A stretch of 64,000 nucleotides of DNA from Lysobacter sp. MMG2 (lineage in GTDB: Bacteria > Pseudomonadota > Gammaproteobacteria > Xanthomonadales > Xanthomonadaceae). A program made the translations under genes and the position numbers. Under the pieces are notes generated by a model, which made no database searches, was not told the DNA's origin, and saw only the letters and a list, made by a program, of their open reading frames with translations. Positions 19,796 through 42,939 of the stretch are shown here, piece by piece (the stretch's first letter is position 1; each line of letters opens with the position of its first letter). Where the stretch lies: NCBI RefSeq assembly GCF_016735495.2, contig NZ_JAERQY020000002.1, positions 682,001-746,000 on the forward strand. Reading direction: 5' to 3'.

Positions 19796-20173
19796 GCCGG
19801 CGGAAGCGATCGATCCGGGCAGACGCGATCCGTCAGGCCATCCCGTCATCCCGGCGAAGGCCGGGACCCAGGCCCTCGCCGTCTCCGCCCACATCTCGTC
19901 ATCCCGCGAAAGCTGGGATCCATTTGGCTCTGCGCCCTGCGTTAGGCGCAGCGGTACGAAACGGTGATCGCGAGACTTCACCGCCACCACTCCGCCGCCC
20001 CTCACCCCAACCCTCTCCCGCCGGGAGAGGGGCTCAGGTGCCGTCATCCCGGTGAAGGCCGGGACTCAGGCACGAAGTCTTGGATGCGGCCCGCATATCG
20101 TTTCAAAATATATACATTGCCGTTAAACGATAAGTGAGATATCGTCCGGCAATAAACGTCCGGGAGAGCCACC
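19796..20173. other. REP cluster and likely promoter/operator of the DUF2975-HTH pair
   Basis: This 378-nt gap contains REP hairpins at about 19850-19871, 19908-19931 and 20043-20066. It also has a CCTCACCCCAACCCTCTCCC-type hairpin at 19999-20036 and an A/T-rich 70 nt (20090-20160) with inverted repeats that is likely the promoter of the following genes. No gene is supported. Confidence 0.75.
20096..20145 (+). promoter_or_regulatory. Candidate operator with TATCGT repeats
   Basis: TATCGTTT (20096-20103) is matched by an inverted AAACGATA (20125-20132), and a further TATCGT follows at 20140-20145. The segment is the only A/T-rich stretch nearby and lies about 30-80 nt before the DUF2975 start. 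HTH proteins of the downstream type often act on their own operon, so autoregulation is plausible but inferred. Confidence 0.4.
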
Positions 20174-39904: not shown

Positions 39905-40690
39905 ATGACCCAGGCTCTATGGATCGCCAAGACCGGCCTCGACGCGCAGCAGACGCGTATGGCGGTGATCTCGAACAATCTGTCCAACGTCAACACGACG
40001 GGCTTCAAGCGCGACCGCGCGGAGTTCCAGGACCTGCTGTACCAGACCATCCGCCAGCCCGGCGGCGCGACGTCCGAACAGACGCAGTCGCCCACCGGCC
40101 TGTCCACCGGCACCGGTGTGCGCGTGGCGGCGACGGCGAAGGAGTTCTCGCAGGGCAACCTGGCCGTCACCGGCGGCGCGCTGGACGTGGCCATAGACGG
40201 TCGCGGCTTCTTCGAAGTGCTGATGCCCGACGGCAGCACCGCCTACACGCGCGACGGCAGCTTCAAGCGCAGCCCGCAAGGCGAACTGGTGACCAGCTCC
40301 GGTTATCCGGTGCAGCCGGGCATCCAGTTTCCCGAAGGCACGCAGAGCGTGACCATCGGCGCCGACGGCACCGTTTCGGTGAAGGTGCAGGGCCAGGCCG
40401 AAGACGTGCAGGTCGGTGCGCTGACGCTGGCGGATTTCGTGAACCCCTCGGGCCTGCAGGCCATCGGCGGCAACCTCTTCGTCGAAACCGGCGCCAGCGG
40501 CCCGGCGCAGACCGGCGCGCCCGGCACCAACGGTGCCGGCCAGCTCGCGCAGGGGCAGTTGGAAGGCTCCAACGTCAACGTCGTGGAAGAGCTGGTGTCG
40601 ATGATCGAGACCCAGCGCGCGTACGAGACCAACGCCAAGGCGATCTCGACCACCGACTCGATGCTCGGCTTCCTCAACAACAACCTGTGA
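39905..40690 (+). CDS. flgG: Flagellar distal rod protein FlgG
   Basis: The 261-residue protein starts [46 protein letters not shown]. It ends in [37 protein letters not shown]. Both are FlgG signatures. CAGGAGACAACC lies before the ATG. It overlaps nothing and is followed 8 nt later by flgH. Confidence 0.96.
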
Positions 40691-40698
40691 GGCGCGTC

Positions 40699-41397
40699 GT
40701 GAACGCTCTCGTGCGAATCACCCTGCTTCGAGCCGCCGTGGCCGGCGCGACGCTTGCGCTGTCCGGCTGTGCCGCCGTCGTCGGCGACGTGCGTCCGTTC
40801 GAACCGATGGTCGCACCGCCCGCCGCGGTCGTCGCGCCGGTCGCGCCTTCCAGCGAAGGCTCCATCTACGGCGGTCGCGGCCTGAACCTGTTCCAGGACA
40901 ACAAGGCGCGCGACGTGGGCGACCTGGTCACCATCGTGCTGGTGGAAAACACCAGCGCGCGTGCACAGGCCAACACGTCGGTGAGCAAGGAATCGGGCAT
41001 CGAGATGGCCGCGCCGACCATCGCCGGCGTGCCGATCACCTACAAGGGCAACGCGATCCTGGAAGCGTCGGTGGAAGGCTCGCGCGACTTCAAGGGCGCC
41101 GGCAACAGCACGCAGAGCAACCGCCTCAACGGTTCGGTCACCGCGACCGTCGTGCAGAACCTGGGCAACGGCAACCTGCTGGTGCGCGGCGAGAAGCAGG
41201 TGCGCCTGAACCAGGGCGACGAGCTGATCCAGGTTCAAGGAATCGTGCGCACCGCCGATATCGGTCCCGACAACCGCATTTCGTCCGACCGCGTCGGCGA
41301 TGCGCGCATCGTCTATGGCGGGCGCGGCACGCTGGCGCGTTCCAACGCGATGGGCTGGCTGGGTCGGTTCTTCAATTCCGCTGTCTACCCGTACTGA
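40699..41397 (+). CDS. flgH: Flagellar L-ring lipoprotein FlgH
   Basis: The 232-residue protein has a lipobox ALSGC near residue 20 and the FlgH motifs GSIYGGRGLNLFQDNKARDVGDLVTIVLVENT, GNGNLLVRGEKQVRLNQGDELIQVQGIVR and DARIVYGGRGTL. It forms the outer-membrane L-ring. GTG 40699 has GAGG 7 nt upstream. The stop is followed 9 nt later by flgI. Confidence 0.95.
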   Translation: MNALVRITLLRAAVAGATLALSGCAAVVGDVRPFEPMVAPPAAVVAPVAPSSEGSIYGGRGLNLFQDNKARDVGDLVTIVLVENTSARAQANTSVSKESGIEMAAPTIAGVPITYKGNAILEASVEGSRDFKGAGNSTQSNRLNGSVTATVVQNLGNGNLLVRGEKQVRLNQGDELIQVQGIVRTADIGPDNRISSDRVGDARIVYGGRGTLARSNAMGWLGRFFNSAVYPY

Positions 41398-41406
41398 GGA
41401 GGGCGT

Positions 41407-42747
41407 ATGAACATTCGTATTTCCTCCTCGTCGCAGGCTTTGAGCCCCTCTCCCTCCGGGAGAGGGGTTGGGGTGAGGGGCAACGAAGGGAAAGGGTTGA
41501 ACCGCTTTTGCCGTACAACGCTGCGCGGTTGCTGCGCGCTGTCTGCCCGCATCGCGAGAATCAAAATGGATTCCAGCTTTCGCTGGAATGCCGGTGACAA
41601 GGGTGACGGCGTGCGGGCCTGGATCCCGGCCTTCGCCGGGATGACGGTTTCGATGGCGTACGCGTCGACGTTCGCGCTGCTCGCCGTCGCCACCGCCCTG
41701 CCCGCCCACGCCGAACGCATCAAGGACCTCGCGCAAGTGGCTGGCGTTCGCGGCAATCCGCTGGTGGGTTACGGCCTCGTCGTCGGACTGGATGGCAGCG
41801 GCGACCGCACCAGCCAGACGCCCTTCACCGTGCAGAGCCTGAAGACGATGCTCGACCAGCTCGGCGTCAGCATTCCGCCGGGCGTGAACCCGCAGCTCAA
41901 GAACGTCGCCGCCGTCGCCATCCAGGCCGAACTGCCGCCCTTCGCCAAGCCGGGCCAGCCGATCGACGTCACCGTCTCGTCCATCGGCAACGCCGGTTCG
42001 CTGCGCGGCGGCAGCCTGCTGATGGCGCCGTTGAAGGGCGCCGACGGCCAAGTCTACGCGATCGCGCAGGGCAGCCTGGTGGTGTCGGGCTTCGGCGCGT
42101 CCGGCAAGGACGGCTCGCGCATTTCGGTCAACGCGCCCAACGGCGGACGCATTCCCAACGGCGCGATCGTCGAACGCGCGGTGGCCGGCGCGCCGGCGGC
42201 GGGCAACGTCACGCTGAACCTGCACGAGGCCGACTTCACCACCGCCTCGCGCATCGTCACCGCCGTCAACGCCGCGTTCGGCAACGGCCGCGCGCGCGCG
42301 GTGGACGCGGTCACCATCGAAGTGATGCCGCCCAACGACGGCGACCGCGTCGGTTTCCTGGCGCGACTGGAATCGCTGGACGTGAGCCCCGGCGCGGCGG
42401 CGGCCAAGGTCATCGTCAATTCGCGCACCGGCACCGTGGTGATGGGCGGCCAGGTCAGCGTGCTGCCGGCGGCGGTGTCGCACGGCTCGCTGACGGTGTC
42501 GATCACCGAGAACACGCAGGTCAGCCAGCCCAACGAATTCGGCCGCGGCGACACCGTGGTCACGCCGCAGTCCTCGGTCGAAGCCAGCCAGGACGGCGGC
42601 CGCATGTTCCTGTTCCAGGGCGGCACGTCGCTGGAGCAGATCGTGCGCGCGGTGAACGCCGTCGGCGCCGCACCGGGCGACATCGTGGCGATCCTGGAAG
42701 CGCTCAAGCGCGCCGGGGCGCTGCGCGCGGAGCTGGAGGTGATCTAG
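41407..42747 (+). CDS. flgI: Flagellar P-ring protein FlgI with repeat-interrupted leader
   Basis: The mature part ([31 protein letters not shown] onward to the [10 protein letters not shown] end) is a normal full-length FlgI, the periplasmic P-ring subunit. The leader is abnormal: from ATG 41407 (GGAGGG upstream) to ERIK there are 102 residues instead of about 20-35. The extra part is encoded by a CTCTCCC hairpin repeat (41440-41482) and a REP pair (41566-41647), all in frame. A hydrophobic core with AHA cleavage site ([16 protein letters not shown]) remains just before ERIK. In-frame ATGs at 41566, 41641 and 41653 could be used instead. Confidence 0.9.
41440..41647. repeat. Two intergenic repeats inside the flgI leader
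   Basis: GAGCCCCTCTCCCTCCGGGAGAGGGG..TTGGGGTGAGGGG (41443-41482) belongs to the family found at 19999, 51374 and 52276. GGATTCCAGCTTTCGCTGGAATG (41570-41592) and GGATCCCGGCCTTCGCCGGGATGACGG (41621-41647) are REPs like those at 52932 and 52605. Together they add about 210 nt, a multiple of three, to the 5' end of flgI. Confidence 0.9.
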
Positions 42748-42777
42748 TGCCATCCAATCGTCGACAGCACGGCCTTT

Positions 42778-42927
42778 GTAGCCCGGGTAAGCGAAGCGCA
42801 CCGCGCCCCACAGACAACTCAGTCGTGGCGGCGATGAACGCGCCGCAGCGCGTTGCACCGGTAACGTGCGACTTGTTTGTGGTTTGGGCGCGTCACCCCG
42901 GGTGCGGCTTCGCCTTACCCGGGCTAC
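42778..42927. repeat. Long GTAG-headed inverted REP pair between flgI and flgJ
   Basis: GTAGCCCGGGTAAGCGAAGC (42778) faces GGCTTCGCCTTACCCGGGCTAC (42906-42927). The centre is about 105 nt, longer than in the other two copies. Confidence 0.85.
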
Positions 42928-42939
42928 AGCATCGCGCGC

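Follow-up and report, generated by a model that had tools for sequence, protein, structure and literature searches.

In-frame repeats in the flgI signal-peptide region of Lysobacter and their probable translation as a disposable leader

The flagellar gene flgI of Lysobacter sp. MMG2 carries a composite repeat in frame in the n-region of its signal peptide, and this repeat is probably translated from ATG 41407 as part of a 102-residue disposable leader, leaving a normal mature FlgI. Positions refer to the window, the whole 64,000-nt stretch of DNA that was analysed, which comes from the 4.17-Mb genome of this strain (G000); G148 is a genome of the same species, and the other G codes denote congeners. 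flgI is required for the P-ring and hence for swimming, and viability is independent of it; the sequence-only reading had called the gene essential, which is true of the P-ring and swimming only. In the proposed mechanism, translation would start at ATG 41407, coupled to the termination of flgH, and the ribosome would read through the repeats to yield the 102-residue leader. Sec would then recognise the hydrophobic core at the leader end, and signal peptidase would remove the whole leader between AHA and E, releasing normal mature FlgI.

The L-ring gene flgH (40699..41397, + strand; NCBIfam NF001304 FlgH, E 3e-83 over 40681–41394), whose start is likely GTG 40699 as judged by eye, ends in a TGA stop (41395–41397) that overlaps the flgI Shine-Dalgarno (SD) sequence GAGGAGG (41396..41402, + strand). 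The anti-SD duplex in the 20 nt before ATG 41407 reaches −12.0 kcal/mol; the sequence upstream of this ATG, TGAGGAGGGCGT, contains the flgH stop as its TGA and places the SD at normal spacing. The flgI precursor frame of 446 codons (41407..42747, + strand; NCBIfam NF003676 FlgI, E 2.6e-135, residues 105–446) runs without a stop for 102 codons from ATG 41407 to ERIKDLAQ at 41713. Both the strong SD and the reading of the frame thus bear out the earlier view of ATG 41407 as a well-placed start of an open 102-codon run. The leader (41407..41712, + strand) consists of the repeat-filled n-region followed by a 17-residue hydrophobic core, and mature FlgI (41713..42747, + strand; Pfam PF02119, 462.6 bits) has a full-length domain, covering positions 1–343 of 343 in PF02119 and 1–344 of 344 in NF003676. 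The hydrophobic core and the AHA ahead of the mature start were recognised by eye, and cleavage after AHA is predicted from the AXA motif and homologues.

That this leader is far longer than usual was confirmed with a set of 109 flgI leaders, genus included, of which 101 were resolvable and eight were not. Outside the genus, the 92 distinct resolvable leaders have a median of 28 residues; four are of at least 60 residues and none reaches 100. The automatic finder misplaced the flgH stop in L115 and L116; in L001 it set an odd flgH end, the start being right there.

The surplus is a composite repeat unit (41440..41646, + strand) made of a CTCTCCC hairpin module, a spacer of ~83 nt and a REP pair. 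The hairpin module (41440..41482, + strand) has its stem at 41445–41467 (−22.4 kcal/mol) and its core at 41446–41466. The left CGTC-tagged REP (41567..41593, + strand) has one mismatch, a hairpin of −14.5 kcal/mol and a mutated tag (ATGCCG for ATGACG), and the right copy (41620..41646, + strand) matches the consensus exactly, has a hairpin of −17.3 kcal/mol, encodes WIPAFAGMT and contains ATG 41641. In 100 shuffles, the chance expectation was 0.00 for the REP pattern and 0.00 for the hairpin pattern. A published survey defines CGTC REPs by a CGTC tag, a stem of 8–9 bp beginning with AT pairs, a loop of 4–5 nt and a CCA tail (PMC3733652). The right REP at 41620–41646 ends in ATGACG, the reverse complement of CGTCAT and hence the CGTC tag, and the REP stem ATCCCGGC-CTTC-GCCGGGAT has 8 bp, a loop of 4 nt and TGG (= CCA) in front, so that by tag, stem, loop and tail the leader REPs fit this super-family. 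CGTC-tagged REPs are described as occurring in many copies, mostly as head-to-head dimers (PMC3733652); the two copies in flgI of G000 have the same orientation (+/+), whereas the intact pairs in flgI of G001, G002 and G009 are inverted.

Both patterns recur elsewhere in the G000 genome, with 275 matches for the REP pattern, many of them forming close −/+ pairs among the 100 matches listed, and 33 matches for the CTCTCCC hairpin pattern on both strands, palindromic sites being counted twice. Almost the whole of 41440–41646 can be aligned with C6:212082, C1:1217834, C4:162688 and C1:1559215 (74–78%) and, in a separate comparison, with 19843–20036 of the window (70%); in the alignment of five composite copies, conservation covers the hairpin and the REPs, and the spacer is variable. 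Because the hairpin, variable spacer and REP pair recur in the same order elsewhere in the genome, one composite appears likelier than two unrelated insertions. The surplus would accordingly be read as one ordered composite, or two modules tending to lie together, plus the ~83-nt spacer. The sequence-only reading had proposed two insertions accounting exactly for the surplus: both repeats are there, yet 41483–41565 is spacer, and the recurrence of hairpin, spacer and REP pair in order at five other places speaks against two separate events.

Across the genus, flgI is present in 10 of 12 genomes, giving nine species-level leaders (G148 belonging to the species of G000). Counted from the first start, the leaders have 102 residues in G000, 107 in G001, 107 in G002, 81 in G005, 72 in G009, 59 in G003, 56 in G004, 44 in G008 and 37 in G007. 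An in-frame repeat occurs in six of the nine. G001, G002 and G009 have an intact inverted REP pair; the G003 leader has an eroded pair, which lacks a perfect stem and was identified through alignment with G009 and the common spacer; and the G005 leader has a different repeat family, with 15 pattern matches in the G005 genome, one of them at the flgI leader. A perfect-stem scan (at least 7 bp, loop of at most 12) found no stem in the G003 or G005 leader, whose repeats are imperfect or long-armed palindromes. In the leaders of G004, G007 and G008, no repeat was recognised by eye in the sequences and alignment. Protein-level conservation of the long leader in related genomes, named earlier as an observation that would speak against insertion, is not found between species, in which both repeat family and sequence differ; the families of G000 and G005 are unrelated. 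What appears new is one n-region that holds different repeats within one genus, again and again.

The spacer within the REP pair bears on how old the insertion is: G003 and G009 each contain GTCGCCGCGAGTCTTC a single time, at the flgI leader, and the other 10 genus genomes lack it. Because it is found solely at these flgI leaders among the 12 genomes, the REP pair of G003 and G009 is likely an old common insertion. The spacer in G001 and G002 is similar in alignment, the exact 16-mer being missing, and their pair is probably the same insertion. In a tree of flgH and mature flgI, G000/G148 group with G009, and G001/G002 group with G004 and G007; three nodes are weakly supported (0.29, 0.47 and 0.71). 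If this tree is right, the REP would have been lost in some lineages and the composite gained by the window species; the right REP of G000 may be either the old insertion or one that arrived with the composite.

Evidence for translation of such repeats comes from two congeners. In G003, the GTG coupled to flgH is at −59, and the next ATG, GTG or TTG is an ATG at −5, although a CTG lies at −34; in G005, none lies between the GTG at −81 and an ATG at −15. The anti-SD energies of the upstream GTG are weaker in these deciding congeners (−6.3 kcal/mol in G003 and −7.1 kcal/mol in G005). Since no usable ATG, GTG or TTG follows the repeat, the repeats of G003 and G005 must be translated if flgI is made, unless the CTG or a rarer start serves; for an eroded REP pair and for a repeat of another family, translation is thus all but forced by the layout of start codons.

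For the window species, the sequence-only reading had left two readings side by side, an extended leader and a restart at a REP-supplied ATG. The genus comparison favours the extended leader, as a probable reading rather than a proven one in this species. A restart in or after the REP, at ATG 41641, 41653 or 41566 or at GTG 41611, would give a leader of ordinary length. The REPs do provide an ATG (GGGATGACG), 41641 being one such, and the same REP ATG in G009, G001 and G002 would give leaders of 23, 45 and 44 residues with a basic residue close to their N-terminus (MTASLK, MTGLK and MTALK, respectively). Moreover, no ATG in the fold is more open than 41566, and it has been argued that most 5′-end REPs in ORFs of P. 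putida, C. koseri and S. maltophilia are perhaps non-coding (PMC3733652). We nevertheless consider a restart unlikely. The SDs of the four candidates are weak (−3.0 to −4.8 kcal/mol), and all internal in-frame ATG, GTG and TTG codons of G000 have anti-SD values of −2.6 to −7.9 kcal/mol, as against −12.0 kcal/mol at 41407. ATG 41641 combines a weak SD (−3.1) with a position inside a hairpin stem, its A and T having unpaired probabilities of 0.01 and 0.07. The earlier remark that internal leaders lack basic residues also held, as the two shortest, from ATG 41641 (24 residues) and 41653 (20 residues), contain no K or R. A restart with ATG, GTG or TTG is impossible in G003 and implausible in G005, where the downstream codons leave 5 and 15 residues, respectively, and the SD-led upstream start beside the flgH stop is kept in all six repeat-bearing species. 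From the weak internal SDs, the position of 41641 in a stem and the absence of basic residues in the 24- and 20-residue leaders, we infer that translation in the window species begins at 41407, giving a full-length leader whose n-region is filled by the repeats and which signal peptidase would cut off.

The reading frame itself contributes less to this preference for the extended leader. Frame 0 is open in every one of the six repeat-bearing leaders and 8 of 12 off-frames are closed, a random choice of frame having a probability of ~0.05 for five lineages (calculated by hand, with G002 left out as kin of G001); the statistic is modest, as an alternative frame is also open in each of G003, G005 and G009. 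In dinucleotide shuffles of each leader, the probability of an open frame was 0.17 for G000 and 0.41–0.86 for the other five, so that openness alone is not strong evidence.

A control with 30 REP loci (the first 30 listed among 270 matches, several in one cluster) and 12 REP stretches of the window gave 32 distinct open frames of at least 170 aa. An in-frame Pfam domain above the cut-off was found in 3 of the 32 (PrpF, GDPD and GIY-YIG), and one more had a sub-threshold DUF7511 (23.6 vs 27). In those three frames the REP precedes the domain, and a start is available past the REP; L128, L137 and L140 are open frames through REPs into real genes, with the start probably downstream. Openness alone thus proves little, since frames through REPs also occur with a probable downstream start. 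The G000 REPs lie within the SD-led open frame of flgI. L140, with an upstream ATG (anti-SD −7.4), may be a second translated case. In that locus (1367–1894) the frame of the GIY-YIG domain begins right after the REP pair, and its start ATG may be supplied by the REP, or the REP may be translated from the upstream ATG.

Beyond the genus, visual inspection suggested REPs in leaders L053 and L099 of Stenotrophomonas, which were dropped because their two genomes gave 0 exact matches to the REP pattern. The Pseudoxanthomonas-type leaders L020, L026 and L083 show a doubled motif such as RKSPH...VPRKSPHIHVRGFN; the three genomes contain their palindrome CCCGCACATCCATGTGCG 1, 3 and 5 times, and these leaders possibly carry a separate in-frame repeat. 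Within the window, between flgI and flgJ (42777–42928), TGTAGCCCGGGTAAGCGAAGCGCACC and its rough inverse GGGTGCGGCTTCGCCTTACCCGGGCTACA were seen by eye and not listed by the repeat-finder scan; they seem to represent a further repeat family, located at a gene junction within this operon.

At the start site, the SD GAGGAGG can pair with CCTCCTC just inside flgI (41396–41429), burying the start codon. In the long fold, ATG 41407 is fully paired and sites 41497 and 41566 look more open. With this pairing and a start-hairpin z of −4.8, efficient initiation at 41407 would need coupling to flgH translation, at which the start hairpin itself hints. The hairpins could also be functional, the 5′ repeats and the SD-sequestering hairpin adjusting, relative to flgH, how much FlgI is made or how fast its mRNA decays. 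The REP hairpins are stable, and the start hairpin is pronounced in G000, with weaker z values in G009 (−3.0) and G002 (−1.8); the start stretch of the other six of nine species, however, ranges from −1.2 to 0.5, three species have no recognised repeat, and unrelated families occupy the site in G000 and G005, which makes a regulatory role of the repeats rather improbable.

Repeats are common sites of misassembly, and G006 and G010 (98–99% complete), two of the 12 genus genomes, have no flgI match; they are perhaps non-flagellated lineages. An assembly error or a dying pseudogene is nonetheless scarcely credible. In G148, the other genome of this species, all 306 nt of the leader are the same (0 differences), which argues against assembly error and disfavours the frameshift or sequence error at 41440–41650 that had been raised as an objection. 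Mature FlgI is intact, its eight differences between G148 and G000 being seven silent and one replacement codon. Mature flgI has a dN/dS of 0.07–0.12 in six congener pairs (0.08 for G000–G009). The leader values in six pairs are 0.47, 0.89, 0.92, 0.91, 0.13 and 0.63, with unsure alignments for distant pairs; the value of 0.13 (G007–G001) comes from 37 codons holding just the ends and the hydrophobic core. The REP segment gave ~2 on 34 codons (G001–G002). No purifying selection on the REP segment was seen in this test, which speaks against a conserved REP peptide, and the repeat-coded residues look unconstrained, with mature FlgI conserved.

The position of the repeats may follow from the gene order. 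In the species examined in the survey, REPs between same-direction genes sit near the 3′ end of the gene that precedes them (PMC3733652). As no gap follows flgH, an element landing past it falls in the flgI n-region, which, with flgH and flgI overlapping and no intergenic space between them, would be the nearest tolerant stretch. Only in-frame, stop-free insertions would keep FlgI, and the n-region may tolerate any open in-frame sequence, being cleaved off. A further reading, held tentatively and below even odds, is that the n-region of flgI serves throughout the genus as a landing site for at least three palindromic families, the candidates being the CTCTCCC hairpin, the CGTC-REP and the CGTCCTGAGC palindrome, and that the REP stretch is now a working part of the export signal. 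There, the REP-encoded R-A/T-W-I/V-P-A-F/C would supply a basic residue and the start of the hydrophobic core, and the REP may help export by adding both beside the core. The clearest case is G003, in which the REP remnant abuts the hydrophobic core.

Intragenic REPs are already published, so the earlier description of repeats in coding sequence as rare holds in relative and not in absolute terms. The 2013 survey found REPs inside real genes, more at the N-terminus than at the C-terminus, with different REPs at about the same recB site in two Xanthomonas species, and suspected many N-terminal cases of being mis-called starts (PMC3733652). The G000 repeats belong by published features to the same super-family as its intragenic CGTC/GTAG REPs; unlike its N-terminal cases, G003 and G005 leave no other usable ATG, GTG or TTG. 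Its main text contains no occurrence of flgI, flagell*, signal peptide, signal sequence or Lysobacter, and no flgI repeat case was found in print in a search that was narrow for flgI itself. Rickettsia palindromic elements (RPE) are likewise described as palindromic repeats that lie in frame within protein genes unrelated to one another (PMC10969869); the 2013 survey assigns RPE-4 and RPE-6 to CGTC families and mentions in vivo expression of proteins with an N-terminal RPE-1 (PMC3733652). They differ in host and are spread over many genes, whereas here one signal-peptide n-region in one genus is concerned. The extended signal peptides of autotransporters are exceptionally long, used by Sec and for the most part built from one set of domains (79 of 90; PMC2805444), in contrast to the G000 leader, which is repeat-derived and not visibly constrained. 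The flgI leader is thus probably another case of in-frame intragenic REPs, new in gene and place as far as found, and in two congeners the start-codon layout makes the evidence that an N-terminal repeat really codes better than usual.

The 2013 survey left unsettled for several species whether 5′-end REPs are translated or mis-annotated (PMC3733652). A genus with differing repeats in one n-region makes REP translation directly testable in a single motility gene. Such leaders are a warning for gene finders that trim starts of this kind, and they suggest that a signal peptide could be harmlessly extended by mobile repeats.
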